The notes beneath the pieces were generated by a model, which saw nothing but the letters and a program-made list of their open reading frames with translations, did no database searches and was not told where the DNA came from. 64,000 nt of DNA from Gonatopus flavifemur (Eukaryota; Arthropoda; Insecta; Hymenoptera; Dryinidae): the NCBI GenBank assembly GCA_018340375.1, contig JAFFJZ010000039.1:1426001-1490000 (forward strand), in the 5' to 3' direction. Below are positions 1 to 58,172 of the stretch, piece after piece. Made by a program: the position numbers and the translations under genes. Positions within the stretch are counted from its first letter, which is position 1. Every line of letters starts with the position of its first letter.

Positions 1-1640
1 TTGTGCACTTGGATGTTGATGATGTTGAAGTTTGAACCGTTCATGGAAATTATCGTCGAATGCAAAAGTACCTTACAAAAAAGGTTATCAACGAATACAC
101 AAATACTAAATTGTTTACCTCTTTGATTTTTGTAATGTAATTCGTCGAATTTGTATATTTTATTCGAAGGAATCAATTTTTGAACCCTCTCATCAGTTTC
201 TGGTTTGATTTTCCTGTCTGACTCTGAATTTGTCTCCATGAATAATTCAAACTTCAACGATTTTGTTGACGGGTAATATGAACAATACACGAATTTATAC
301 ATACTCTTTTCTATAACAGAGCCTGTAAATTAGGATTTACTCTGTTTCAACTGAATAGTCGTGAACATTCCATCGTTGGCGAAAAATTTTCCAGGCAAAC
401 CCATCGTTTTTTTTTAAACATCACAAGCAGTATAGCAGGTAATCAATACACTAACTATCGAAGTAGTTAAGGAGGGGTTTGATTTATCTGACTTGGAGAT
501 GTAACATCTCAAGAATTCTCTTCTGAAGCAAGTTGAGAGAATGGATGGGAAATTTCTTTTGGCAATGATGAAAGAATTCGGAGAGATAGGAAGGATATGC
601 TAACGCGCTGTGGATATCATTCTTTATGGCGATGAAAAATTATAATTCAAAAAACACCTTCGTAATCGGCGTGAGTCATCCAGGCCGGTAGATTATCCTC
701 AACCCGAGAACAAAAGATTTCCTCCTCAGTCTAGAGAATATATGAAGTATTGACGATAGAAAAATCGCAAAATTCTATTCAGGAAAGATTTTTGAATGAT
801 CTTATGAAAAAAATTTTCTATTAAATTTCTTCAAATGTTGATGATTTCAAGACGTCTCCCAAATTCTGACTTTTTGATCATCAGCAGTTTATATATTCTT
901 TGAACTGGAAATAAAATCTTCGTTTTTTGGGTTATGGATAATGGTTTGATTCAATCACGCAGGTCACACAAAGTTTTCCTGAATTCTAACTCCTTACTGC
1001 TATAGGGAATAATAATTAGAACACATTTGCTTGACTTTTTCATCTTTCTGAACCTCTTCATCAGTACTGAGAGGAATTTCTCATCTCTTCGTTGTAGCTC
1101 TATTAAAGAACAATTCCAGAGATATATTTTTGAGTGAAAAGAGATCACACTCCCCCTCTTTACGTGATCAGAGATTCAATGGAGACTATCTACTATTTTT
1201 TATTGATAAAGTTTCTCATTGCTTTGGTATTTTATACTAGACAATGTTACGCGATATTGGAAGATGTTCCGAAACTTATTAATGTAGTTGGAGTTTTTAA
1301 TGTAATCACTCCGTTACAACAGCATTACAGAATGATTTTGATGGTGAGGGTGTCTCACATAACAGGATAGTTCGAAAAAAGAAGATAAAAAATTTAGAGA
1401 GAGTTTTCCAATCATAGATTAATTTTCTTCGATCAATGACTTTCGATTTGTTGTGCTGTGCGGAATGATACTACTATGACAAGTTACAGCGATATGACTG
1501 ACGTATTAGTAGAGTAATTTGTATGAGTAGGAAGTCTTCTCGTGAATCGCATAAACAAATGTATCGATATTGATGATTATATTTGATTTGTCCCAGGTTC
1601 CAGAGTGATTGGCTGAAAATTATATTCAAAGATTAAAAAA

Positions 1641-1643
<3 letters not shown>
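1..1643. other. AT-rich stretch, nothing recognised
   Basis: Short open frames of 65-78 codons (for example 951-1148 on the reverse strand and 1134-1370 on the forward strand) overlap on opposite strands. They show no motif, repeat or protein family I recognise. No RNA gene, terminal repeat or clear splice pattern was seen. The Helitron further right must have begun somewhere upstream of 1783, so its 5' end could lie here, but I could not place it. Confidence 0.5.
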
Positions 1644-1704
<61 letters not shown>

Positions 1705-1782
1705 GATGATGATGATTGATGATTGATGATTGATGATTGATGATTGATGATTGATGATTGATAATTGATGATTGATGATGAT
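1644..1782. repeat. (GAT)n / GATTGAT microsatellite
   Basis: About 40 bases of pure GAT trinucleotides pass into GATGATT-type units. This gives spurious poly-Ile and poly-His frames on the reverse strand. It directly abuts the first recognisable Helitron codons, so the repeat has replaced or expanded into the N-terminal coding part of that element. Confidence 0.95.
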
Positions 1783-4700
1783 ACTATACGTAGTGATGAG
1801 AATACGAAGAAGTTGAAATCGGTTTGTACCATGGATCCAAATGTTGAACCGTGGATTTATCCATTGTTCTATCCTTATGGTACCCAAGGATGACATCGTG
1901 ATATAACCTTGAGGACTAAAAACAAACGTGTGAGTAGAGCTGCATATTGCAAATATCGGATAGCTGTGCGTGATAATTTTAATGTAATTCTAATGGGTCG
2001 CAGATTATTCCAGCAATGAGTTGTTGATTCTTATGTTAAAATCCAAAGGGATAGAATGAATTCCTTATCGCAAAACCAAAGAAGCTTACATCTTGATAGT
2101 TATGCTGGGTTGAAAGGTCATTTGGACAGTGCTGCTAATGTTGATGATGCCGATGTAGGAAAAGTAGTCATATTACCAGCAACGTATGTAGGTTCTCCAC
2201 GAAACATGATACAACATTACCAGGACGCGATGGCAATCGTACGTGAATACGGAAAACCTGATCTTTCCATCACTATGATGTGTAATCCTCAATAGCGTGA
2301 AATCCAAGAAAATCTTCTTCCTGGTCAACAAGCATCTGATAGGCCCGAATTTATGCTCGTGTATTTAATTTGGAAAAAGATTACCTTTTGGATGTCATTG
2401 TCTGACAGAAATAAATTTGGGGATGTCCAAGCGTACGTTTACGTCGTTGAATTCCAAAAACGGGGTTTGCCACATGTACATTCATTAGTGACATTAAAAC
2501 AAAACAGTAAAATTACTACCCCTTGTATTGTTGATCAGCATATATCAGCAGAAATCCCAGATGATAAGTCAAATGCCACGTTGCACAATATTGTAATGGA
2601 ACATATGATACATGGGCCGTGTGGACAATGGTGTCTGGTAGATGGTGAATGTTATGAACATTACCCAAAGGCATTCAGGGAAGAAACTGCAATGGATGCA
2701 GATGGATATCCATTTTAACAGTGACGGAATACAGGAAAGACCTTTCAACGTCCTGGCAACTACGTAATTGATAATCGCCATGTAGTGCCCTATTCTCCAG
2801 GGTTATTAGGACTCTTCAACTGTCACATCAATGTAGAAGTTGTATCAAGTATCAAAGCTGTGATGTATTTGTACAAATACATTTATGAAGATCATGATGC
2901 AGCTATTGTTGTAGTTCGCGAGTGTCCTGGTGATAATCCTTCTATTAATTACAATGAAATACAGAATTTTATAGGAAGTCGTTATGTGGGTCCTGTTGAA
3001 GCTGTATGGCGAATTTTTAGTAGACCTCTCCAAGAAAAGAGTCATTTCATCATGAGATTGCCTGTTCATTTACCGAATCAACAAACTGTGGTCATTTCTG
3101 ATGATGATGATGCAAATGTCTTGAGAAATGCTCTTGAGAAAGTTACTATGTTGATTGACTACTTTTCACTAAATATTCGTGATGAGGAGGCGAAGAAGTA
3201 CCTCTATTCAGAGATTCCATATCATTACGTATCCAAAAAAGTCAAAGAAGATGGACACAATGTATGGCGTTGGGAACGTCGTAAAAGTTGTTTCAATGTG
3301 ATCGGACGCATGTATTCCGTTAGTCCGTCGCAGGTAGAATTATTTCATTCTCGTTTATTGTTATTAACGGTTGGAGGAGCAAACAATTTTGAAGATTTGA
3401 GAACTGTTGATGGAAAAATTTACCCAAAATTCACTGCTACGTGCCTAATTTCAGGTCTGATTGCGGATGACGAGGAATGGATTGGAACAATGCAACAAGG
3501 TGTGCTTCGGATGATGCCACAACAACTTCAAAGATTATTTGTTGGGATTTTGATACATTGTCAACCCCTGCACCCAGAACGGTTATGGAATGATTTCAAA
3601 GTCTCTCTTTCAGAGGATTATATCAGGCGAATCGGTCCAATTCTTGATCAAAAACAAGGATATTCAGAAATCTCAAGATTGTTAAATGCTGAAGGTTGGG
3701 ATTTGTCCCGTTTCCCAACAATGGAACAAATGCCATTTGACGTTCAGAATGAGGATATCTCTCCGACGGAACATATCCATGATGGGACCCGGCAATACAA
3801 CCAGTTGAATAGCCAACAAAGATTAATTTTCGACGCTATTTTAGAATCAGTTGATCTTACATTTACAGATAATCACAGAATTAATTGTTTTCATATCGAT
3901 GGACCAGGAGGATCTGGAAAAACATTTGTGTACACTACTTTGTATCGTTTGTTACAGGTTAGAGGGAAAAAGGTATGTTGTATGGCATTCACTGGAATTG
4001 CTGCAACATTACTTCCTAATGGTAAAACAGTACATAAAACATTCGGTTCACCAGTCCCTATTTTTGCAGATTCTTCTTCAAATATTGAGGTACAATCTAG
4101 AGAAGGAGAATACCTGAGGAGAGTTGATGTATTCATTTGGGATGGAGCACCAATGGCTCCTCGGTATTCATTTGACATCATAGACCGAACAATGCATGAT
4201 GTAATGAAATATGACTTACCTTTTGGAGGTAGAATTCCCATTTTAGGAGGTGATTTCAGGCAATCACTCCCTATAAAAGTACATGGAACTCGCACTGAAA
4301 CGGTTAATCTTCCAATCAAGTTCAGCCCTTCATGGCCTCTGTTCAAACAATATGTTCTAATGGAAAATATGCGTGCTCTGCCGGAAGAACTAGGATTTGC
4401 TGAGTTTCTTCTGAAGGTGGGAAATGGAGATTTATATCAACAAGATAATATTATTATTCCTGAACATTGTGTTGCTCTTCCTGATGCAGATATTGTTGAA
4501 GATGTTTATGTTGACTTGATTAATCGAAAACGATATGTCGAACTGAGTAAACGTGCAATATCATCTGCTAGAAATATCGGCGTGGAAGAAATTAATGGAG
4601 AGGTTATGGATTCATTGGATGTGAATACAGAGCGTATATATCTTAGTGTGAACAATGTCTCAAACTATGATAAAAGAGGGATTGGAGAAACTATTCTTCC

Positions 4701-42054: not shown

Positions 42055-43065
42055 AGTAGTAAGTGTTCTGGTATGGGGGATCCCCCCCAATCGCCTTCTC
42101 AGGGGGACACCCCATACCACACGCCATAAGGTGGTCCAGAGCTCGAGACAAGTGAGATGGACCAGATAATATCATAGGTCTCGAAGATGAGATCCAGATC
42201 CCGAAATGATAAGAAAAAGAGAGGTGTTCATGGAGAGTTATGTCAAAAGAGGAAAGTTTACAATAAGGAGAAAATATTGATTTCAAAATTTTATGAATGG
42301 ACAAATGAATGATATGAATAATCATTTTGGAAAGAGATTCTTCTTGTCTAGGAGACGAAGATATATCGTAGGGTATATAGAAGGCTCAAGGAAGAAACAG
42401 AGGAAGTTTCTATCCTTGTCCCCCTCACCGGGACGTACTGCTAGTACGAGGGACCTTCGACTTCGATACAAGAAGAAGGATTCTCCGTATACTGTATGAA
42501 ATAATATTCCGTCAGTGAAACAAAAAGGGTTTGATTCGTGAAAAGCTTCGACCCATAGAAAAAGACAGAACGTTCATGAATAGAGTCGATCGGCAACGAT
42601 GACAATAGCGATCAATTCCTTTTTTTCGACTCCATTGCCAGGTAAAAAGGTCTCGGTGACAAGAGTATGAGACCTCCGTGAACTTGGCCAGAACCCGGAA
42701 CGGATTTGAAACTTATACACGGCAATCGGAAGAGCATCGTTTGTAGCTGATTGTACCGCGGAAATTTTCATTTGTACCTCAAAGGGGGCGGAGATACGGC
42801 CCGGGGGCTTATGCCCCCGCCTGTGACTGGAACCGATAGGGACGATCTGGGTGTCATTTGAAAGGGCTTCGTTTGTACTTGATCGTACCGATGATATTTT
42901 CGTTTGTACCTCAAAGGGGGAGGAGATATAAGGAAAAATAGTTTTTAGCAATTTATATCGATTTTTTTGGGGATTTCTGATGAGGAGGACTCTGGATTGC
43001 TTCAGACTGTATCCTGAACTGTGTGGGATTTTGAGGCAGAGACCCATACACCTCAAGAGTGGAAT

Positions 43066-44336
43066 GCCGTCGTTTGAACCTTCTCAGTTTTGCCACGATG
43101 AGCCCAGATTGCCCGGAAATCGATATAATTTCACGATTTTTTCTCTATCAGGACCCAGGATTAGTCCAGGCTATGTTCTGAACGGCATGGAAACTTAGAT
43201 TGAACCTCACATACTATAAAAATTTTGCCACAATCAGCCTAGATTGCCTAAAAATCGATGTATTTTCACGATTTTTTTCCCATCAGGAACCAGGATTAGT
43301 CCAGGCTATATTCTGAACTGCATGGGAACTTAGGTCAAACCTCCTCACATACTACAAAGATGATTTCGTCGTTTGTACCTCCACAGTTTTGCCAAAATTA
43401 GACTAGATTGCCCAAAAATCGATATACTTTCACGATTTTTTCTCCATCAGGACCCAGGATTAGTCCACGCTATATTCTGAACTGCATAGAAACTTGGGTA
43501 GAACCTCCTCACATACTAGAAAAATGATTCCGTCGTTTGTACCTCCACAGTTTTGCCACAATGAGCCCAGATTGCCCAAAAATCGATATACTTTCACGAT
43601 TTTTTCTCCATCAGGACCCAGGATTAGTCCGGGCTATGTTCTGAACGGCATGAAAACTTAGATTGAACCTCCTCACATACCAGCAAAATGATTCCGTCGT
43701 TTGGACCTCCACAGTTTTGCCACAGTGAGCCCAGATTGCCCAAAAATCGATATACTTTCACGATTTTTTCTCCATCAGGACCCAGGATTAGTCCAGGCTA
43801 TATTCTGAACTGCATAGAAACTTGGATAGGACCTCCTCACATACTAGGGGAATGATTTCGTCGTTCGTACATCCACAGTTTCGCCACAATCAACCTAGAT
43901 GGCCTAAAAATCGACGTATTTTCACGACCTTTCTCCATCAGGACCCAGGATTAGTCCAGGCTATATTCTGAACTGCATAGAAACTTGGGTAGAACCTCTT
44001 CACACACTAGGGAAATGATTTCGTCCTTTGTAACTCCACAGTTTTGCCACAATAAGCCCAGATTGCCCGAAAATCGATATACCTTCACGATTTTTTCCCA
44101 TCAGGACCCAGGATTAGTCCACGCTATGTCCTGAATGGCATGAGAACTTAGATTCAACCTCCTCACATACTAGAAAAATGATTCCGTCGTTTGTACCTCC
44201 ACAGTTTTGCCACAGCTAGACTAGATTGCCCAAAAATCGATATAATTTCACGATTTTCCCTCCATCAGGACCCAGGATTAGTCCAGGCTATGGTCTCAAC
44301 GGCATGGGAACTTAGATGGAACCTCCCCACATACTA
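43066..44336. repeat. 164-bp tandem array, left arm
   Basis: Eight units, the first shortened to 136 bases. Anchors TGCCA/TGCCAC fall at 43091, 43227, 43390, 43554, 43718, 43882 (as CGCCAC), 44045 and 44208, giving a period of 163-164. Each unit contains GACCCAGGATTAGTCC and ATCGATATAC. The open frames across the array are read-through of the repeat and not genes. Confidence 0.95.
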
Positions 44337-44344
44337 GAAAGAAA

Positions 44345-45130
44345 GTTTCTATGCCGTTCAGAACATAACCTGGAGTAATCCTGGGTCCTGATGGAGGAGA
44401 AATCGTGACATTACATCGAATTTTTGGGCAATCTAGGCCAATTGTGGCGAAATTTTGGAGGTACAAACGACGAAATCATTTTTCTAGTATGTGGGGAGGT
44501 TCAATCTAAGTTTCAATGCCGTTCAGAACATAGCCTGGACTAATCCTGGGTCCTGATGGAAAAAAAAGCGTGGAAGTATATCGATTTTAGGGCAATCTGG
44601 GCTTATTGTTGCAAAACTGTGGAGGTAGAAACGACGGAATCATTTTTCTAGTATGTGAGGAGGTTCTACCCAAGTTCCTATGCAGTCCAGAATATAGCCT
44701 GGACTAATCCTGGGTCCGGATGGAGAAAAAATCGTGGAAGTATATCGATTTTTGGGCAATCTGGGCTCAATGTGGCAAAACTGTGGAGGTATAAACGACG
44801 AAATCATTTTCTCAGTGTGTGAGGAGGTTCTACCCAAGTTTCTATGCAGTTCAGAATATAGCTCGGACTAATCCTGGGTCCTGATGGAGAAAAAATCGTG
44901 GAAGTATATCGATTTTTGGGCAATCTGGGCTCAATGTGGCAAAACTGTGGAGGTATAAACGACGAAATCATTTTCTCAGTGTGTGAGGAGGTTCTACCCA
45001 AGTTTCTATGCAGTTCAGAATATAGCCCGGACTAATCCTGGGTCCTGATGGAGAAAAAATCGTGAAATTATATCGATTTTCGGGCCATCTGGGCTTATTG
45101 TGGCAAAACTGAGAAGGTACAAACGACGGG
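44345..45130. repeat. 164-bp tandem array, right arm (inverted)
   Basis: Five units in reverse orientation relative to the left arm, with the inverted anchor at about 44445, 44609, 44772, 44937 and 45101 (period 163-165). Adjacent units at about 44640-45000 are nearly identical (the same 65-codon frame occurs twice), suggesting recent unit duplication. Confidence 0.95.
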
Positions 45131-46661
45131 ATCCCACTCTTGAGGTGTATGGGTCTCTGCCTCAAGATCTCACACAGTTCAGGAAACAGTCTGAAGCAAT
45201 CCAGAGTCCTCCTCATCAGAAATCCCCAAAAAAATCGATATAAATTGCTAAAAACTATTTTTCCTTATATCTCCTCTCCCTTTGAGGTACAAACGGAAAT
45301 ATCATCGGTACATTCAAGTACAAACGAAGCCCTTTCAAATGACACCCAGATCGTCCCTATCGGTTCCAGTCACAGGCGGGGGCATGAGCCCCCGGGCCGT
45401 ATCTCCGCCCCCTTTGAGGTACAAACGAAAATTTTTGCGGTACAATCAGGTACAAACGATGCTCTTCCGATTGCCGTATATAAGTTCCAAATTCGTTCCG
45501 GGTCCCGGCCAAGTTCACGGAGGTATGAGACCTATTGTGGATAGGAAGTATATGTACGTACAAGGTATATGAAATGAGATGAATGAAACAGAGTATATAA
45601 AATTATCGTTCAACGAGAGAAATAATGATAATGAATGATCAAGGGAACGTATAAATAGAATATAAGACGAGGGGCCGTTCACTCTCGAGTCAGACGATCT
45701 TGACGCTCAACCAGTGATGCCAGCATTTGGTCGACCGAGTCGATTTACCTTCTCCATCCGACCATTTCTCATCCCCACCATTCCAGCCGGGTGTACGTAC
45801 ACATTAAAACCCGTATTCATGTGATTCGGAAGTGGTCGGCTCACTTCAAGTCGGCTCGGACAATCGAGAGAGAACAGACTATCCGTCGGTCTTTGTCTTC
45901 TCAATATGTTTTACGATCGGCTAACTCCGTGCAAGACCGGGAGAAGTTTGAGGCCCACGCGGTCGACTTACCGAGAGGTTCCACCGCTTTTCCTTTTCCA
46001 AGTGACAATTTTATTGTAATCAGTATCGAACTGGCTTACCCGGCACTCCGGGCAATTCTCGGCCGGGGCCCTTCGATATTTTTTCTTTGTTTTCTTTGCA
46101 ATTATAGATCTGATGCATCGCATCATTCAATTGGATTGAAGTCGAATGTACGTAAATAATTTTCAAATTATTATTCATGTTTCATAAATTTTATGAGATT
46201 ATTGGTTATTCTTATGATTGATTATGGAGCTCTCAAGAACTCCTATATGTATTCTATGGAAATTTTCTGATAGTCCCGCATTCTTATTCATTATTTTGAA
46301 TCTTGATAATCCTCCAATGAATTCCATTGGAATTGTCAATAAATCGATGGTTGAAAAATTCTGAGATAGTTTGGGGATCCATGATGAATATCCTGCGGTG
46401 GATTCCATAATTTTTACTGGTTAATCAATTCTCAGAAATCAGTATGACATTCCAATGAGGATGATCAAATCAACATCGATTGTCAGATGTTGATCAACAT
46501 CAAAATAATGAGACTGAATATTCAATTGATTGAGTGCAAATTATTTTCAATGGACTGAAGAATTAGATGTGAGCATTCAAATTGATATTTCATCATTCCA
46601 CACACTATCAGTCTCTTTCCTCCGCTGCATTGCTTCATAGACGTGATGATCCATATATATA

Positions 46662-48693
46662 CAGGGTGGGGCATTTAAAGTGTCGCGGGCGTTTTTTCCA
46701 AAAATGAAGTGAGATACGAGAAAATTTTTCGGACAAAAGTTGTAGGGTACCGAGGGGGACATCCGATGGTGGCCTTGGCTTTGACCTCAAATCTCATCTT
46801 CAAGGGCATTCTGAGATCAACTCTTGTTTTTTGAATAGCATTTCATATTTTTCACTGCAGATTTGGATTCTAGGTCAAAAAACAAGAAACTTTTGTGTGA
46901 ACCATTTTCCTGAAATCCGCAAAAATGGCGCTCTAATCGATATTGTTCCATTTTGAATCTGACATTCGAATAACTCGAAAACGAAGGGTCTTGCGAAAGA
47001 ATGTTTGGTACAAAAAATGTCAATACACAACAGATTTCAATCGTCTACATTACCACCATTCAGAGCTCACGCGATGTAAACAAACGACGAGGTTCAGTGA
47101 AAATGCACGATTTTGAAAGTCAGTTTGTCAGTTACATTTGATTATTACTTGGTTTATGACAAATTGAGAATCATGGATATCCGACACACGGTTTCTGAAA
47201 AGATCGATATGATCTACATTTACGGTGAAGTGCATAAGAACCCCAGACAAGCATATGACTTGTATGCCGAACGATTTCCTGAAAGAACAACGCCATCCAT
47301 TAGGTATTTTCAACGCATTACAAAATTATTCTCAGAAACGGGAGGTGTTACAAGGGAAAAACGACATCGAATGAGAACTGTTAGCGGAGAAAATGCGGAA
47401 GTTAATGTACTAGCTGCAGTAGCCAATAATCCACACGTGAGCTCTCGTGAAATTGAACTCCATTCGGGAATTTCTCGAAGAAGTGTTCTTCGAATACTGA
47501 AACGTCACAAATTCCATCCGTATCACATTTGTTTGCATCAAGACCTTCACGGTGATGATTTCGAGAATCGTGTACAGTTTTGTCGATGGGGTCTAGCGCG
47601 AATGCACAATAACAACTTCATCAACATATTATTTTCTGATGAGTCGACGTTCACTAATCATGGTCAAGTAAATCGACATAATATGCATTACTGGGCGACA
47701 GAAAATCCAAGATGGTTACGTCAAGTAGAGCATCAAAGACAATGGGCTGTGAATGTTTGGTGTAGTATTTTTCGATCTCGAGTAATTGGACCGTACTTCA
47801 TTGCAGATACGCTAAATGGAGAGGAGTACAGACATGTCTCAGATCAAGTACTTCCAACATTACTTGAAGACATACCTATTCAGGAACGATTGAATATGTG
47901 GTATCAACACGATGGTTGTCCATCCCATTATGCAGTCACAGCTCGAGAAATATTGGACAGAGATTATCCTGGACGATGGATAGGACGTCGTGGACCAGTT
48001 CATTGGCCTGCCCGTTCTCCGGATCTTACTTCTCCAGATTTTTTTTTATGGGGATACATAAAAGATACAGTTTATCAACAAGCACCGACTACACCTGAGA
48101 ATATCCGTCAACGAATCATCAATGCATGCGCGAGCATCAATGAAGATATTTTAGCACGAGTTCAGCAATCTTCCGTAAAACGTTTTGAAATGTGTATTGA
48201 AGTCGAAGGCCATCATTTTGAGCATCTACTGCATTAAAATTATCCAAGTGATGTAGGCGATTGAAATGTGTTGTGTTTTGTCTGTTATACCCCATCACCT
48301 CCGTTTCAGTTCAAGGGGTCCCCCTTGGAATCAGACAACTTTTGTCCGAAACATTCTCCTCCAAGACCCTTCGTTTTCGAGTTATTCTAATGTCAGATTC
48401 AGTATGGAACGATATCGATTAGAGCGCCATCTTTGCGGATTTCAGGAAAATGGTTCAGACAAAAGTTTCTTGGTTCTTGACCTAGAATCCAAATCTGCAG
48501 TAAAAAATATGAGATGCTATGTAAAAAATAAGAGTTGACCTCAGAATGCCCTTGAAGCTGAGATTTGAGGTCAAAGCCAAGGCCACCATCGGATGTCCCC
48601 CTCGGTACCCTACAACTTTTGTCCGAAAAATTTCCTCCTATCTCATTTTATTTTCGGAAAAAACGCCTGTGACACTTTAAATGCCCCACCCTG
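46662..48693 (+). mobile_element. Mariner (DD41D) with about 350-bp TIRs
   Basis: A 2032-base element starting CAGGGTGGGGCATTTAAAGT and ending with the reverse complement, flanked by TA on both sides (46660-46661 and 48694-48695). Inverted repeats extend about 350 bases into each end (46662 to about 47010 and about 48341-48693), much longer than in classical mariners. It carries one intact transposase gene. Because it sits inside the left TIR of the giant hAT, and the right TIR shows the uninterrupted sequence near 57190, it is the younger of the two. Confidence 0.95.
47173..48237 (+). CDS. Mariner-type transposase, DD41D, intact
   Basis: A 354-codon open frame from ATG 47173 (MDIRHTVSEKIDMIYIYGEV). 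It performs cut-and-paste transposition at TA sites. The N-terminal half has helix-turn-helix segments (NPHVSSREIELHSGISRRSV). The catalytic domain has ILFSDESTF (first Asp), YQHDGCPSHYAV (second Asp) and WPARSPDLTSPDFFLWGYIK (third Asp); I count 41 residues between the second and third. Length and motif order are those of a full IS630-Tc1-mariner transposase. A longer frame begins at 47113 but only with a non-ATG codon. It lacks visible lesions, the only such transposase in the window, so recent or current activity is possible. Confidence 0.93.
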   Translation: MDIRHTVSEKIDMIYIYGEVHKNPRQAYDLYAERFPERTTPSIRYFQRITKLFSETGGVTREKRHRMRTVSGENAEVNVLAAVANNPHVSSREIELHSGISRRSVLRILKRHKFHPYHICLHQDLHGDDFENRVQFCRWGLARMHNNNFINILFSDESTFTNHGQVNRHNMHYWATENPRWLRQVEHQRQWAVNVWCSIFRSRVIGPYFIADTLNGEEYRHVSDQVLPTLLEDIPIQERLNMWYQHDGCPSHYAVTAREILDRDYPGRWIGRRGPVHWPARSPDLTSPDFFLWGYIKDTVYQQAPTTPENIRQRIINACASINEDILARVQQSSVKRFEMCIEVEGHHFEHLLH

Positions 48694-48717
48694 TATATGG
48701 ATCGAAATATTACAAGA

Positions 48718-48788
48718 CCCCATAGCCTAGCGGTAAAAGACATGGTTCCTGCGAAAGAACGGTCGAGTTCGATTCTGTGTGGAGGCAT
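48718..48788 (+). ncRNA. tRNA-like module in the hAT terminal repeat
   Basis: Has a box A-like TAGCCTAGCGG and, about 38 bases later, a box B-like GAGTTCGATTC, the internal RNA polymerase III promoter spacing of tRNAs. The inverted counterpart in the right TIR (about 57102-57172) keeps both boxes. Stems, especially the T stem, pair poorly, so it is not a working tRNA. A SINE captured by the element is one explanation. Confidence 0.4.
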
Positions 48789-48929
48789 TTCATTTTTTTT
48801 GTCATCTCTCTGGTGAATAATTTAATTTCACATCCAATTATCATTTTTCATGTCATTACATCGTCATGTTATCAATATCCCTGATGTTTCAGAATGCACT
48901 CGCGGAGTTGACCAAGGACTGGTTCGAGT

Positions 48930-49430
48930 CGATTGAAAATTTCCCAAATATTCGTGTCCGTGAGATAGAGATCGATCGATTCGAAATCTTCTGAGAATAA
49001 AAATGAATATCACTTCGGAGGAACGTTTTTGAGAAAGTATACTTGCAAATTCCATCAAACTCTTCAACGAATTGGTGGAAAAATTTGAAAACTTGGAATC
49101 TTTGTGGAATATAAACCGATCAATTCGGAATCTTCTGAAAAGAAAGACAATGGATATCACTCCGAAGGAACGTTTCTAAAAGAGTGTAGTCGCAGATCCC
49201 ATCAATTCCTGTGACAAATTGATGGAAAAATCTCAGAAACTTGTGTCCATCGATTGTGTCCAGAGACCGATCGATTCGCAATCTACTGAAATGAAAAATG
49301 AAATCACTTCGGAGGAACGTTTTCAAAAAAGTATACTTGCAAATCCCATCAAACCCTTTGACGAATTGATAAAAAAATTTCGAAACTTTGTCTCCGTGGA
49401 ATATAGACCGATCGATTCTGGATCTCCTCT
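48930..49430. repeat. Tandem repeats of the hAT left TIR
   Basis: At least three units of about 148 bases, each with GAGGAACGTTTT, CTTGCAAAT(T/C)CCATCAAA and GACCGATCGATTC-like words. They are inverted relative to the units at 56110-56950. Degenerate extra units appear at 51060-51260. Confidence 0.88.
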
Positions 49431-49431
49431 G

Positions 49432-49571
49432 AATTCATATAGAGCTCTGGAGGAGTTCAATCTGTCTGACATTAACAAGTTCTTTGAGAGTACTCAACTC
49501 ATACTCCTAATATTCTCAAAGAGCTTGTTAATGTCCGACAGATTGAAAACCTCCAGACCTCCATATGAATT
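49432..49571. repeat. 140-bp hairpin
   Basis: Two arms of about 60 bases, with shared words AATTCATAT and CTGACATTAACAAG (right arm CTTGTTAATGTC), separated by about 18 bases. It sits just inside the left TIR satellites. It may be a small MITE or a structural end of the TIR. No target duplication was seen. Confidence 0.75.
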
Positions 49572-50514
49572 TATTAGTTTGAAAAGGAATGCTTGAAGAG
49601 TTCTATTCTTGCTCTTGAGAAAGAATTCTCCGTGTGTTACCTGGGCGGGTTGGTAGCGTTCAAGTCAGTCACCTTAGCCGGTCGGCTATCGTGGCTTGCT
49701 TACGTACTTACAAATTATGGCCTTACTTAGAGAACGTCAACTCTTCAAAATGTTCATACCTCAGGATTTTTATAGTTTGTACTTGACTTCCATCAAGAAG
49801 GGAGATTATGATAATGAATATAATAAAAGATTGTCATTCATCATAACTACGTATTTCTTTGGTTCGTATGATACTATTGATGTGATCTCGATTTTATAGC
49901 TGTTGTGGAATTCTGGCTCTTTCTTGGTTGCGCCTGTAAACGGCCAGCCGTTCCTACGCTTACCACTCGCTTATGTGTGTCTGTGTGTGTGTGAATTTTC
50001 GATACGAACTGCTTGTACGCTTGGAATTCAAATTAGTCGTTACGAAGCGTTCGGTACCTCGTGCTTGTTCTCTATTCGATCGAAGCAGTGAGAAATTTCC
50101 TAGTTTTCTTGTATTTTGCGTGCGGAAATATTCTATTGTCTTTAATCGTGCTCGATAATAGGGGCTTGGAAAATCTCCTTGTGTGAAGCCTTTGTTCGAG
50201 AGTGCTGGAGTGGGTTTTACCGTGCAACTCACTGCTTCGTGTTTCGAACGTGGAGTAACGACTCGCCGCTTGTTTGGTTAGCGAAAATTTAGTTTTTAAG
50301 TGATCGTTGTGATCTATGAATTGAAGCTTGTTCAGATAAAGGTACTGAACGGATTAGTTATAAACTAATTGGGAATCGAGTCGGGAATCAGCTATTGTTT
50401 GTTGAAGGGAAATTTAACGAGTTTGAGATTATTAAACTTTTGGTTCAAACTCATTCGCTTTAGTTTTTTTTTTTTATATATAACTTCCAATTCCCTTACA
50501 ATAGCCGTAGGGAA
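49572..50514. other. hAT interior, no gene
   Basis: Includes a somewhat G+C-richer stretch (about 49900-50330) that could be promoter or leader for the transposase gene. No recognisable coding sequence. Confidence 0.35.
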
Positions 50515-50761
50515 TACACGCAGAAAAGTATACGGTAACGGTTACTATGAGAAATAGTAATTTGGTGACAGATATTCAAAAATTGTAATAAGTACCATTC
50601 AGAATCGGAGTAAGCGCGGTAAACTGTTTACGTTACCATGGAAACGATAGGTTAACATCGTAATGATCACCAAATTGCGAGTCGTCACTCAATTCCTATT
50701 CTGAAGTCGTGACGAGAACCAGAGCTAATATTGATCAATCCCATATACTTTTCTCCGTGTA
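50515..50761. mobile_element. 247-bp MITE with TACACGGAGAAAAGTATA ends
   Basis: Starts TACACGCAGAAAAGTATACG and ends with the reverse complement of TACACGGAGAAAAGTATATG. The ends match at about 18 of 20 positions. The interior has no coding sequence. A target duplication is unclear. Confidence 0.7.
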
Positions 50762-52116
50762 GAGATTCTTATGATCGAAATACGGATTCCAATGATAACT
50801 ATACATCCTGTTGGTCCATATAATACTGTTCTCGAAATTTTCATTCTGTCTTTGCAAGTAACAGGGCTCCTTATGATCGAAATACGGATTTTTATGGGAA
50901 GTATATTCTTTCTATAATAACATACAGTTCAACCGTGAGAATATCGTATTCCAGTACTAAAGAGAAAGTCAATATCCCTAAACATACAGATATTAACAGT
51001 TTGTATCTAAAGTTCTACAATGCGATTTGCATAATCCATCTCCCTCCGTGCTGTGATGAAAAATGGATAGCATTCTAGAGGAATGTTTTTAAAGAAGTTT
51101 GATTGCGAATTTTATCAAATCCTGTGACAAATTGATGATAAAATTTGTTTCCGTGGCATATAGGCCAATCAATTTGGAATCTTCTGGAATTAATAGTAAA
51201 CAGCACTTTTGAGGTACGTTTTGAAACAGTGCACTTGCAAATGTTGTACTCCTCTGTGCATCAACCAGGAGGTGAATTGGGAGCGAATGCGTTCTTTCAA
51301 CCCTTAGAGGAAGGATTTCCTAATCCCAGTCAGGAATATGAATCCAACAATTTGGATTCCACATCGAAATGATATTTCCACTGAGAAAAAAATTCACCCC
51401 TCATTCTGAACGAACAAGATATTTCTGAATTTAAAGATGTAAACAACGAGATGGAAGTTAGAATTCATTAGAATACGTTGGATTCAATACTTGGAATTCT
51501 TCCCAATTTTTATAATCCAAAATCTGGAATAATGATTGGACACTGTATGTAATTGAAAATCCAATCGCTCCAATCCAATCAATCCTCATCACATCTGGAA
51601 TGAGAGAAACGAAAAACAGTCATGAATATGAAAATTCGATTATACTGAAAATCGCATGTTTATACTGAAAACTGTGATATATTTCTCCTACACTGTCTGA
51701 CAAGGAGAGGGATATTTCCACTCACTCTGTCAATTTAGCGATTGAAAAATGTCGTCATTTACGTAATGTTTTTCTTCCTTGATGCGGAATCATTATTGGA
51801 ATTATCGTATGAGAATTACATTGATTCACAAAATGTATTGATCCATACCTAAAAAGCATTCATTACGACATTGTGTCTATGCACTGTATTGTACCAAAGG
51901 ATGGGATTTTCGAATCGCCAACGTATTTATCAAAACAAAACACTGCGCGACACCAACTGTTCATGTTCTTCTTTCCTCTCATATATTGCATATGTGATAC
52001 GGACCGAGGTCGACGTCTTTCCGATCACCTATAGTTTTGAATCCGATTTTGGATTATAAAATAATTGCAAAAGGTTTGAAGTGTTGAATTCAACAGTATT
52101 CTGATAAATTCTGTGT
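50762..52116. other. hAT interior with degenerate satellite units
   Basis: 51060-51260 contains sequence related to the TIR satellites (GGCATATAGGCCAATCAATT, GAGGTACGTTTT, CTTGCAAATG). The rest is AT-rich without features. Confidence 0.4.
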
Positions 52117-52167
52117 TTGATCTTACGGTTCATAGTTTTGTATTCAAAAATATTCAGTTTGATCAGA

Positions 52168-54405
52168 ATGGAGGGTGGTGATTTTGTAGTTGATAAGAAA
52201 AAAAAAAGCAATCCATATTTTTCGCGAAATTGGTTGCTCAAAGACCCTGAGTGGAAAATGTGGGTTCGTGAAGATCCAAGTGATAGCTCGAAATTTTTTT
52301 GTGACATATGCCGAAGGGGTGTTTGGTGTGATGGCCCTGCAAGGATCAGAGCCCATTCCAAGAGCCAACATCATTCGCAACAGAGCAAGTTGTTCCATTT
52401 CGGTCGAGATAATGTAGATTCTTCTCCTTCTCCCTCTAAAACTTTTAAAAATGTCAAATCCATAGTTTCGGATGTTCCATCTCTTGATGGGATATCACCA
52501 GGAGGGCAATGTGTCAATTCCATTCCTCAGTCTTTTCGTGATAGGATCGTTGTAGGTGGGGCCGATGCTGTTCCTTCATGCCGTGATGACTTGTCAATAA
52601 ATGATAACGTTGATCAATTGGGTGCCGTTCGTGAGGGGTATGAGAATTGAGATCTTCTCCAAGGATCTGATTCTCCTCCTGTTAGGAATAATAATAATAA
52701 TAGTCACGTATCGGATGTTTATTCTTTTGTTCATGGAAGTTCAGTCCAAAATTCACATAGACTTTTGCGAAAAGCTGACGATAGATTGGAAAATTCGTTT
52801 AATTCGTCTTCTTTGAATGATGATCGTTTGGGATGTTCCCAAGATCTAAATCCTCCTCAATTGAATGCTGCCTCGTCTTCTGCTCCTTCACAATGCCAGC
52901 AAACAATTGGATTAGAAAGTTCGAATCCGGATGATGAGCCTCCAGATCTTAAAACAAGAGTTCAAATGGCAGAAATTCGTTTTGCGACAATTTTCGCAGA
53001 AAAAAGTATTCCTTATAGTCATGCAAAGGACCTCTTGCTCCTTATGTAAGTTATAGGGAAGGAACCAGAAGTGCTTCAAAAAATGACGATGAGTCGTACA
53101 AAATTAACAAATATTGTGAATAGGGTTATCCGCGTTCAAGAAACAAACCGATTATCGGATGTTCTACGCCACACAATTTGCAGTTCACGAAGACGAAACG
53201 TCAGATATAACGGATGAAAAATGGATGACATTCATGGCTCGTTATATCGAACCACATACATTGGAAGTCAGATGTGAATTATTGCAAATGATTCATTTAG
53301 ATGCTGCTGATTGCTTCGCTTCTAAATTGTTTAAAAGTTTTAGAAACACATTATGGAAAAATCAGATTCCGATTAGCAATATTGTTGCATTAGGTACTGA
53401 CAACGCATCTGTCATGATGGGGAATAAATCTTCTTTCAAAACAAAATCGATGAAAAAAAATCCACAGATTTTGATGTTCCCATGTATTTGTCATTCTTCC
53501 GCTTAGGCAGCAAGTGTTCCATGTGCCATGAACCCACCGAATTGCGAGCAACTGATTGCAGGTTTGACTACTTTCATCAATGGTAGTCTCAAGAGAACTG
53601 CGATATTCAAAGATTTTCAGGATAGTTTTCAAGAAAGTAATTAACAAATCTTAAAATTCGCGAAAACTTGTTGGTCAACCCGGCATCAATGCATTGTGAC
53701 AATCTTAGAGAATTGGATCACTTTGGAAAACTTTTTATTTGAACAAGTGGTTTCTGATCGTTGTCAACCTGCTGAAAAATTGTTGAATCTTTTGAAGGAT
53801 CCTGCGATGCAAGCGTACTTTTTCATTTTTATCGTATACTCTCGTATAATATAATGCATCCTTCCAGAGAGAACAAACAATGATACATCTACTGCAACCA
53901 CACTCACTTGATTTGTTAGTGTTTTTCTTGAAAAAATTTTCAAACCCACGCTACTAAATCACTTGGACTTGATCAAGTGTGTGAATTTTTCTTCACCCGC
54001 GAACAATTAGCTCTGGGAAATATCGATGTGGGCAGTGAATGCGAAGGACATTTGGAAAATCTGAACCCTGAAAATATTCCAAAAGTAAATGAAGTACGCC
54101 AAAATTGTTCGAAATTTTACATCACCGCTTCTACAGAAATTTTGGAACGACTTCCTACACATGATCTTTTTTTGTATCCTGTCACTGCATTAGGAACAGA
54201 AATTGCTTCATTTGGACCGGATCGACAAAAAACTGCATCGATGATTATTCACGCTAGTCGGAAATTGGGCGGTTTCGATGAAAATTCTCTGAGGGAAGAA
54301 TGGAATTCTATGTACTTTTTGGATCTCACATTGAGACGTGATTTATTGATTGATCCACGCACATATTCTAAGAGGGATTGGAGTCTCAAAATACTGTGGG
54401 GCTGA
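52168..54405 (+). pseudogene. hAT transposase, broken and 3'-truncated
   Basis: ATG at 52168 (MEGGDFVVDKKKKSNPYFSR). A BED/U1-type zinc finger follows (FFCDICRRGVWCDGPARIRA, then HSKSQHH), then a Ser/Asn-rich linker, and the catalytic region with DETSDITDEKWMTFM near 53190, LGTDNASVMMG near 53395 and CICHSS. SLKRTAIFKDFQDSF lies further on, and GSECEGHLENL with RQNCSKFYI in 53977-54405. In-frame stops lie at 52648, 53047, 53504 and 53642. Frameshifts or deletions lie near 53160 and between 53830 and 53977. The C-terminal dimerisation block with the last catalytic Glu is missing after about 54405. It resembles the zinc-finger hAT-like proteins common in arthropods. Confidence 0.9.
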
Positions 54406-55136
54406 CGAACCACGGCGTCTTGATCTTGGATTGTGCATCTCTCTTAGTTTTCGATTATTCATCTTGGACATTTCCAATAGGTTTCGAGTTCCATAATTTC
54501 ATATCGACGAATCAGTTTCATTGCGATATCGAGGACTTCGATATTGCACATGTAAACTTGATCATCGAACACCCAGACAGCACAACGTGCCACTGCAGCG
54601 TTCATCGAATTTTTATAGAACGTAGGGGAGGTGTTCTGGACGTTCAGAAAACATCCTCGAAATGTATTTTGCTTCTGGGTCATATTTCATGTTATTTTCT
54701 CCTAATTTGTGGATAATCTCCGGTACACATTACAAAACACAAACGGTACAGTGGCATATCACATACATATATATATATATATATATATGTATACCATAGT
54801 TGATTAGGTAGTCTTCCTAATTCCCCTTCTGATTCTTGCATCGCAACATTCATAATTTTTCATTACGTTCTTTATTAGAATTAATTCAACGATAATCTTT
54901 TGGGAATATTTTGAAAGAGGAGGACATTTCAATCCCATTTTGTTGGTGAGGCTTCTTCCCCCGTCCGTATAGCATCTTCCCCTCCCCCCCCTCAGGCTGT
55001 CGGGCGAGAGTCAGGCAGTCTATTCATCACTGCACTTACTGTTTTGTAGTGTTCCGGGGATCATGATCGAGCAACAAGGACCACGCAACTCGGGACGTGA
55101 ACAGCAATTCTCATTGCTGAAGAGAAAGTATCGTGG
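54406..55136. other. hAT interior, no gene
   Basis: Overlapping frames at 54378-54716 have no recognised motif. An (AT)n tract lies at about 54768-54790. A C-rich patch at about 54958-54990 is noted. The missing transposase C-terminus is not found here. Confidence 0.4.
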
Positions 55137-55144
55137 AATAGGCC

Positions 55145-55291
55145 CAGTGGTGCCAGTATCCCCTAGAGAAATCTTAAGATTTTTTGGCATTGGTAATTTC
55201 TTTCTAAATTGAAAATATAATTGGCCGGTTATACAAGAAATAACAAATCATCAGATGCTGAAGATTTTTCTAGGGAATACTGGCAACGCTG
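55145..55291. mobile_element. 147-bp hAT MITE with perfect 8-bp duplication
   Basis: Starts CAGTGGTGCCAGTATCCCCT and ends with the reverse complement of CAGCGTTGCCAGTATTCCCT. AATAGGCC flanks it exactly at 55137-55144 and 55292-55299. The CAGTGGTGCCAG start resembles the CAGTGATGCCAG start of the giant hAT that contains it, so the same transposase family may have moved both. It has no coding capacity. Confidence 0.95.
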
Positions 55292-55299
55292 AATAGGCC

Positions 55300-56109
55300 T
55301 ACTGGGTATGCCACGTTAACCTTGAGAAGAAGGTTAGACGGAGAAATTATAATGAGTTCCCAGGTCACAATTCTGGGAAATCTACAGGAACATTCTGGAG
55401 GATTTCTCGGGATTCTGGAACATGTCTTATGGCGCACGTCAAGATAACTCGGAGATATCTTATGGGAGATGTTTTTAGTAATTCTAAAAGATACATTCAG
55501 AAAACCATGAGAAATCTCACATCAAGATTCCGAAGCCACCTTTTGGTGTTCTATGAGACTTCCTCCCAAATTCTCCAAGACATCTTGCAGAATGATCCAA
55601 AAGAATGATCCAAAATTGTGATGCGAGACACATGATTTATATTGGCTCTAGACCCCAACCAGAAAGCGAATGTCATTATAATATAGAACTGATGTCAAAC
55701 ACATCGATCCTATTGAACTCCTCCCTGATCCCCATACGCTACATCCGGGGGAAGAAGTTGTAAAATTTACATCTTATGGAGTCTAAATTTGAATGATTTC
55801 GAAAAATAATCCGAGCTATCACAATCTCAGTTGATTTTACAGCGGGAGAGTACGATATCCATGAGCTGTGGCATATCTCACATGCACTGTTATGAGATCC
55901 CCTCAAATTCTGGTAGCTCAGACTATTTCAGGAATCGTCCGAATAGGGACTCTGTGAGATATGCAATTAACAACTCCTTCTTTCTTAGTTGAGGTATCGT
56001 TTCAATCTAGAATAAAAATCGATGGATTTGTATAACTGGCTGGAATTGAGCTATTCTTCTTCTCAGGGTTGAAGAAAAAGCATTCGCTTGTACTTCACCT
56101 ACTGGGTGA
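55300..56109. other. hAT interior, no gene
   Basis: Nothing recognised before the right-hand satellite array begins near 56110. Confidence 0.4.
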
Positions 56110-58164
56110 TGCGGAAAGGAGTACAAAATTTGCAAACGCATTCCTTGAAAACGTTCTTCTGGAGTGCTGTTCATTTTTCATTTCAGAAGATTCCGGATCA
56201 ATCGGTCCAGTGGCAGTGTGAGAGCTTGTCTGTCTTCCTTCAACTGACACAAAACAAAGGGTGAGATTGAAGGGATTTTCCCGCCCCTTATCCTTGTTTT
56301 CACGCGAATTGAGAGAGGATAGAAATGTTCTCACCACGCTACTGAATCGGTCTGTATTTCACGGAGACAAAGTTTCGAAATTTTTCCACCAACTCGTCGA
56401 AGGGTTTGATGGAATTTGCAAGTATACTTTTTCAAAAACGTTCCTCAGAAGTGATTTCATTTTTCATTTCAGTGGATCGCGAGTCGATCGGTCTTTATTC
56501 GATGGACACAAGTTTCTGAAATCAATTTGTCACAGGAATTGATGGAATTTGCAAGTACACTCTTTCGAAAACGTTCCTTCGAAGTGATATTCATTGTTCT
56601 CCTTCTCAGAAGATTTCGAATCGATCGGTCTATATGCCCCGGAGACAAGTTTTTGAAATTTTTTCACCAATTCGTCGAAGAGTTTGATGGAATTTGCAAG
56701 TGGACTTCTCCAAAAACGTTCCTCCGAAGTGACTTAATTTTTCATTTCATTAGATTTCGAATCGATCGATCTTTATTCGATGAACACAAATTCTTGAAAT
56801 TTTCCCACCAATTTGTCACAGGAATTGATGGAATTTGCCAATACACTTTTCCAAAAACGTTCCTCTGAAGTGCTATTCATTTCTCATCTCAGAAGATTCT
56901 GCATCGATCGGTCTATATCTCATGGACACGAATATTTGGGAAATTTCAAATCGACTCGAACCTGTACTTGGTCAAATCCACAAGTGCATTCTGAATGATC
57001 AGGATCATCGATAACATGACGATGTGATGACATTTAAGATAATAATCGGATGTTAAATTTGATTATTCAACAGAGAGATGACAAAAAAAAATGAAATGTC
57101 TCCACACAGAATCGAACTCGACCGTTCCCTCGCGAGAACATTGTCTGTTGCCGCTAGGCTATGGGTTCTCATAGTATTTGGATCCACATATCACCTCTAT
57201 GAAGTGATGCAGCGAAGGGAAGAGACTCAAATTGTGTGAAATGATGGAATATCAGTTTGGATGCTCTCATCTCATCATTCAGTTCATTGAAAATAATTTG
57301 CACTCAATTAATTGAATATTCAGTGTTATTATTTTGATGGTGATCAACATCTGATAATCGATGTTGATTATCCTCATTGGAATATCATAGTGATTTCTGA
57401 ATATTAATTTATCAGGGAAAATCATGGAATCCATCGCAGGATATTCATCATAGATCCCCAAATTATCTTAGAACTTTTCAACCATTGATTGATTGACAAT
57501 TGTAATGGAATTCATTGAAAAATTATCAAGATTTAAAATAATGATTAAAAATGCAGAACTATCAGAAAATTTTCAGAGAATACATATAGGACTTCTTGAA
57601 AGCTCCATAATCAGTCATAAGAATAACCAATAATCTCATAAAATTCATGAAAAGTGAATAATGATTGAAAAACTATTCACTTATATTCGATTTTACTTCA
57701 ATTAAATGATGCGATGCATCAAATCTATATTTCATTGTGATAACTCGATAATCAGTAATGAACTGGCTCTTGAATTGAGAAGAAAAACGAAAAAAAAATA
57801 TCGAAGGGCCCCGGCCGAGAATTGCCCGGGGTGCTGGGTAAGTCAATCAATACTGATGACAATGAAATTGTCGCTTGGAGAACAAAAAGCGGTGAAACCT
57901 CTCGGTAAGTCGACCGCGTGGGCTTCAAACTTTCCCCGGTCTTGCACGGAGTCATCCGATCGTAAAACCTATTGAGAAGACGAGGACCAACGGACAGTTG
58001 GTTCTCTCTCGATTGTCCAAGCCGACTCGAAGTGAACCGACCGCTTCCGAATCACATGAATACGGGTTTCAATGTGTGCGTACACCCGGCTGGAATGATG
58101 GGGACGAGGAATGGTCAGATGGAGAGGGTCAATCGACTCGGTCGACCAAATGCTGGCGTCACTG
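56110..58164. repeat. Right TIR of the giant hAT
   Basis: Reverse complement of the left TIR. Satellite units (56110-56950; the word GATGGAATTTGC at 56408, 56541, 56686 and 56827, periods 133-145) are followed by the tRNA-like module (about 57102-57172), AT-rich sequence and the outer G+C-rich block. It has no mariner and so gives the pre-insertion sequence for the left TIR. The open frames at 57706-58187 lie in the outer block and mirror those of the left TIR, so they are not genes. Confidence 0.9.
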
Positions 58165-58172
58165 CGCTCAAC

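Follow-up and report, generated by a model that had tools for sequence, protein, structure and literature searches.

A 64,000-nucleotide stretch of the genome of Gonatopus flavifemur (Hymenoptera, Dryinidae; GenBank assembly GCA_018340375.1, contig JAFFJZ010000039.1, positions 1,426,001 to 1,490,000 of the forward strand), here called the window, contains two long inverted repeats that enclose the remains of a hAT transposase gene and are flanked by the same octamer. Is this one transposon and, if so, can it be a hAT element with ends of this length and repetitive build? We find it very probable that the window holds a single, inactivated hAT transposon of the cut-and-paste kind, built as a foldback element with mirror-image arms of about 2 kb. 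The copy itself is old and broken.

One insertion at 45712-58164

The element was delimited at positions 45712-58164 (12,453 bp), with CAGTG...CACTG termini and CGCTCAAC on both flanks. Its first occurrence is followed at once by CAGTGATGCC at 45712, and its second adjoins CAGTGACGCC, read in reverse complement, at 58164. The left end reads CAGTGATGCCAGCATTTGGTCGACC and the right end, when reverse-complemented, reads CAGTGACGCCAGCATTTGGTCGACC. The parts that carry the argument are the following.

45704..45711, no strand: left target-site duplication CGCTCAAC, from comparison of the termini and the empty sites
45712..46647, plus strand: outer part of the left terminal inverted repeat, 936 bp, matching 58164-57190 and also present in related copies
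48694..49433, plus strand: inner part of the left terminal inverted repeat, in which 48965-49425 consists of tandem units of about 147 bp
49434..49651, plus strand: block that forms the innermost part of the inverted repeat in other copies (for example C396), here on the left side only
52168..54318, plus strand: hAT transposase relic, split over three frame segments that together correspond to residues 1-721 of an unbroken homologue of 850 aa
56346..56940, minus strand: tandem units of the right arm, spacing 133-145 bp
56941..58164, minus strand: outer part of the right terminal inverted repeat
58165..58172, no strand: right target-site duplication CGCTCAAC, from comparison of the termini and the empty sites

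For empty sites, the flanks of the element were joined with the duplication kept once and searched against the genome (636 Mb, 402 contigs). For the window, 40 matches were listed of 111 candidates, and two of these were the window's own flanks. At the 38 other places among the matches listed, a single alignment ran through the joint with 88-91% identity, starting 35-46 bases left of the octamer; these sites are known from the alignments across the joint, not from their letters. Since the 38 places are continuous across the joint, the insertion interrupts one member of another repeat, the sister copies of which are still empty. For another copy, L013, all 40 matches listed (of 612 candidates) spanned the joined flanks, and the octamer was present once in the two places that were read.

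Two separate insertions of miniature inverted-repeat transposable elements (MITEs) or foldback elements, or an assembly join, might by chance have bracketed unrelated DNA, and 166-bp and 4-kb elements with these ends are common in this genome. Against this stand the identical 8-bp duplication on both sides and the 38 places aligned across the empty joint, as well as the same interior within the same arms in three further copies, J12, J27 and C396, with duplications of 8/8, 7/8 and 8/8. The chance of such a bracketing is close to negligible, and a composite of two MITEs was ruled out by the empty sites together with the repeated colinear copies. The region 45712-58164 is one insertion, not two. 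A sequence-only reading of the window had proposed a single 12.45-kb element from its perfect 8-bp duplication and matching CAGTG termini, and had named empty sites as a check; the element and the empty sites were both found. The same reading would have been abandoned had the ends never shared one interior or proved to be two MITEs, and instead colinear full-length copies and empty sites were recovered.

In the window copy the element's own sequence amounts to about 1.7 kb in the left arm and about 1.8 kb in the right. The two form an inverted repeat and each contains tandem units, in agreement with the giant, unit-bearing ends first read from the letters. Their outer parts (45712-46647 and 58164-57190) match at 83% over 981 columns and their inner parts (48694-49424 and 57190-56475) at 78%. 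The unit cores are spaced 133-147 bp apart, with one additional step of 287 bp.

The family and its transposase

The terminal 21-mer, with at most one mismatch, gave 1,432 matches in the genome (722 + 710), and the reversed control gave 0 + 0. Among 100 listed end places there were 33 neighbouring convergent pairs within 25 kb, of which 21 were 165-170 bp apart, seven 3.9-4.6 kb and three 0.4-2.8 kb; the remaining two pairs had distances of 8.1 kb and 17.1 kb. Twenty regions around end matches were fetched. Both ends were present in 13 of them and two more, L012 and L027, were completed by extension; these 15, the window and C396 make up 17 complete long copies. Their 8-bp duplication was exact in 12, 7/8 in four and 6/8 in one. 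Three size classes with the same termini were recognised: transposase-bearing elements of 11-15 kb, arm-only elements of 4-5 kb, and the 166-bp MITE.

The hAT interior was enclosed in four of the 17 long copies, namely the window, J12, J27 and C396. The last of these (C396:289641-300953) measures 11,313 bp, has the exact duplication ATTTGGTG on both sides, and its arms of 2,459 bp are 99.47% identical, with 13 mismatches and no gap. J12 (C35; 15,156 bp, exact duplication TGTATACA) and J27 (C395; 14,150 bp, duplication 7/8) are also complete and have been enlarged by nested elements. In J22 (C342) one end and the hAT interior were found, and some 12 kb of nested insertion kept the second end out of reach. 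The sequence-only reading had told the reader to look for other complete copies with 8-bp duplications and an intact transposase. C396, J12 and J27 are complete copies of this kind as regards their ends, and C396 was read with an unbroken transposase frame. Two observations concern the nested sequence in these copies. The left arm of J27 (L027 local 1003-3945) carries a nested 981-aa frame that by eye resembles a non-LTR (long terminal repeat) retrotransposon protein, and in L022 and L030 (C342) the stretch of about 12 kb inside the transposase carries a different, 768-aa frame that looks hAT-like by eye.

The last 129 residues of the 850-aa homologue, which include the hAT dimerisation region, had no match in the window relic, and a Pfam scan of the window coding pieces alone gave no hAT or other transposase match. 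The hAT call for the window therefore rests on its unbroken relative. A fragment search of the genome, in which 150 of 454 candidates were scored, listed among others three close stop-free frames of 870 codons at C396, C375 and C377, of which the C396 frame was read. It encodes 850 aa from the first ATG without stops, and the protein matches Dimer_Tnp_hAT (PF05699; 6.6e-5, 23.1 bits against a curated cut-off of 21.4). The domain was found in seven of the eight members of an alignment of related proteins (A1), and solved Hermes transposase chains match the profile at E ~5e-8. hAT transposases have catalytic DDE residues in an RNase H-like core, and the C-terminal stretch that aligns to Hermes includes what we take to be the glutamate. 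In A1 the motifs DET and DNAS are conserved, and residues C45, C48, H63 and H69 are invariant in an N-terminus that is zinc-finger-like by eye. Seven proteins are 43-50% identical to the C396 protein; they come from a wasp, Prorops nasuta, and an ant, Dinoponera quadriceps, both at 43-49%, and from a JGI record. The C377 terminus equals that of C396 over 150 bp and lies one base off the place reckoned from the C396 layout. Of the transposase claim in the sequence-only reading, the relic was confirmed, while its hAT identity had to come from the C396 homologue. The unbroken frame within full arms makes C396 a potentially autonomous copy of the family.

Two stop-free frames of 753 codons at C362:105197 and C362:331728, 44% identical to the transposase fragment, belong to a sister family. 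From the length of its ends one could judge whether the giant arms characterise the lineage.

Arms, tandem units and their possible upkeep

The arms were compared among copies and with the MITEs. Five 166-bp MITEs were fetched, with the 8-bp duplication exact in four and 7/8 in one, and they have in common with the long element only 44-47 bp of each end. As the MITEs keep only about 47 bp of the ends, the long arms look dispensable for movement. The outermost 200 bp had the lowest mean diversity of the arm (0.010-0.029 in four 50-bp windows against an arm mean of 0.043, 16 arms). In a tree of 34 arms, both arms of a copy were sisters in 13 of 17 copies; the exceptions were L013 with L015 and L018 with L019. 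The likeness of arms within a copy fits conversion between them, or arms that were made alike at transposition and then decayed. Between 0 and 6 unit cores per side were recognised in the 17 long copies, and the numbers varied between sides and copies, as expected from unequal recombination.

We propose that transposase from the unbroken copies would act in trans on all size classes. It would recognise the terminal ~50-200 bp, and on the simplest reading the outer tens to about 200 bp would suffice. The rest of each arm would be carried along, growing and shrinking through recombination between tandem units, and a hairpin or gap-repair gene conversion between both arms may keep them alike within a copy.

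The long arms might instead be functional: the tandem units would offer the transposase additional binding sites and thereby increase transposition, a role that has been proposed for those of Galileo (PMC3573991). Unit cores occur on both sides in 16 of the 17 long copies, units and terminus have words such as ACCGA in common, and Galileo offers a precedent. However, the MITEs with only 44-47 bp of arm are the commonest class (21 of 33 listed pairs), and TCGG/CCGA is only weakly enriched, since 27 of 500 dinucleotide shuffles reach the level of the terminus and 73 of 500 that of the units. A common binding motif of terminus and units was set aside on these counts. We regard a function of the units, by analogy with Galileo, as rather unlikely.

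It had also been suggested that the element spreads satellite DNA, so that the arm arrays would seed free tandem arrays genome-wide. The units are tandem and variable in number, and Tetris of Drosophila virilis did so (PMC4079207). The unit core, with at most two mismatches, had 989 + 980 genomic matches against 11 + 10 for the control. The places used were the first 100 listed, all without mismatch; diverged arrays could escape. Thirty-one exact cores lay on the contigs that the end list spans (the first contigs). Of these, 29 had one of the 51 element ends used (of the 100 listed) at a distance of 20 kb or less, a count made with orientation ignored and without a random control. Together with the 0-6 cores per side in the copies read, this speaks against seeding of free arrays, which we consider improbable, and the suggestion was not upheld. 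At G000:C23:91966-96502 exact unit cores follow each other at 853 bp to either side of a central point, which suggests a copy whose two arms each contain a larger duplicated block.

Several observations count against our reading of the window and its family. In only nine of 17 copies were the two arms more alike than either was to its best match elsewhere, and in the arm tree the right arm of C396 was represented over no more than 41% of its columns. In the two L013 empty sites that were read, two of the eight bases differ from the L013 octamer. Five of the 20 fetched regions were without a second intact end (L021, L022, L023, L025 and L026): in L021 and L026 no second arm end was found within 20 kb, and in L023 and L025 the second arm is truncated. 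The 3' ends of C375 and C377 were absent from the 301-base stretches fetched, and the 5' arm of C375 lies near its reckoned place, but its 5' terminus is off the terminus pattern. Only the C-terminal stretch and an RW segment, which alone is not significant, align to Hermes. Finally, trans-mobilisation and conversion are steps that we infer from sequence comparison.

The remaining features of the window copy are given below.

46648..48693, plus strand: nested Tc1/mariner-like element, foreign to the hAT element, which splits the left arm; inverted ends at about 46650-47021 and 48334-48705
48720..48790, plus strand: stretch resembling a tRNA by eye, with A-box- and B-box-like words, unrecognised as tRNA
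49903..50760, no strand: 858-bp piece found in none of the other fetched loci on comparison with them

The nested Tc1/mariner-like element is bounded by inverted ends of 372 bp and has a frame of 378 aa at 47101-48234 with DUF4817, and 97% identical copies of it were found in L012 and L021. The 858-bp piece is probably a later insertion. The tRNA-like stretch had been read from the letters as a module of the ends. ARAGORN found no tRNA in the window or in 11 loci, and Rfam gave no match in the window or in L009. The diversity of the stretch (0.054) was above that of 80% of the 70-bp arm windows, so that its conservation does not exceed its surroundings, and we dropped it as a gene candidate. 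Just left of the element, at 42672-45524 of the window, lies a second foldback-like structure with 537-bp arms of 94% identity and inward-facing arrays of 164-bp units; its termini by eye are CCTCCGTGAACTTGGCC, and TATGAGA is a candidate 7-bp duplication.

Placement among known transposons

CAGTG forms the outermost bases in hAT elements as well, and the Ac group of hAT prefers the target nTnnnnAn. In 16 exact duplications we found T at position 2 in ten, A at position 7 in seven, a pyrimidine at position 3 in all 16 and a purine at position 6 in 14. The 8-bp duplication of hAT was exact in 12 of 17 long copies and four of five MITEs, and the C-terminal dimerisation domain was present in C396 and missing with its region from the window copy. 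Members of the Mutator superfamily make duplications of 9-11 bp and have a MULE transposase; here the duplications are 8 bp, and no Mutator (MULE) or P domain was found by Pfam in the frames scanned, which covered part of the interior's frames.

These features also bear on the possibility that a transposase of another superfamily, from a Mutator- or P-type foldback, moves the element and that the hAT gene is captured cargo. Long, internally repetitive arms are typical of such foldbacks. The 8-bp duplications, compared with 7 bp in Galileo (PMC2775673) and 8-10 bp in Tetris (PMC4079207), the CAGTG termini, the pyrimidine/purine bias at positions 3 and 6, the unbroken hAT frame inside full arms in C396 and the outcome of the Pfam scan make captured cargo very unlikely, and we retain the hAT assignment.

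The size of the element departs from the hAT description. Elements of this superfamily, which includes Hermes, hobo, Ac and BuT2, share with the present family the 8-bp duplications, the C-terminal dimerisation domain and, as judged by eye, the zinc-finger-like N-terminus, but they are described as 2.5-5 kb long with inverted ends of 10-25 bp (PMC3942097), in contrast to 11.3 kb and 2,459 bp in C396. High-copy grapevine hATs have inverted ends of 8-23 bp (PMC2528002), and the length of terminal inverted repeats is said to be no reliable classification feature (PMC3573991). The foldback class is defined by long inverted arms that contain tandem repeats and enclose little other sequence, as found in L009, an arm-only copy of 4,395 bp with arms of 2,013 bp at 99.4% identity; the transposase-bearing copies have interiors of at least 6 kb between the arms.

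Galileo resembles the family in its long, internally repetitive arms, its arm-only derivatives and its variable unit number, but has a P-type THAP transposase, 7-bp duplications and arms of up to ~1.2 kb (PMC2775673, PMC3573991). Tetris and DAIBAM of the Drosophila virilis group have foldback arms, tandem units of ~220 bp, an end-sharing MITE and 8-10-bp duplications; no transposase was reported, the authors assign them to Mutator, and the units also occur in free satellite-like arrays (PMC4079207). The nearest precedent that we found is gadMor-hAT-1784 of Atlantic cod, which is hAT-type with long inverted ends of 167-169-bp tandem units, but with ends of ~600 bp and a consensus without reading frame, as against 2.46-kb arms and an unbroken transposase frame here (PMC12368964). 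The sequence-only reading had called the architecture unusual for hAT; this claim is softened by the non-autonomous cod element. In the open literature searched, as judged from titles, openings of abstracts and selected passages, we recognised no transposase-bearing hAT with kilobase-long inverted ends, which is not proof of absence. The family is a well-supported hAT variant with foldback architecture and an unbroken transposase frame, which we take to be new.

A wider reading, which we put forward tentatively and rate at somewhat less than even, is that of a potentially autonomous hAT lineage that would have evolved a full foldback architecture independently. Its 2.5-kb arms would be kept near-identical by conversion during transposition and repair, one living transposase would feed the giant elements, the arm-only foldbacks and the 166-bp MITEs, and the arms would be dispersed substrates for rearrangement. 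Galileo, a foldback-type element with long repetitive arms, causes inversions (PMC2775673), and Tetris is a foldback-type element reported without an identified transposase (PMC4079207).

The finding is moderately surprising and very testable. One genome combines the same ends in giant and in minimal form with arm-only intermediates and an unbroken hAT transposase frame. Because these size classes coexist with the frame, it can be tested directly whether long arms help transposition or hitch-hike on it, and the same system would allow tests of how the arms grow and stay alike and of whether they break chromosomes.
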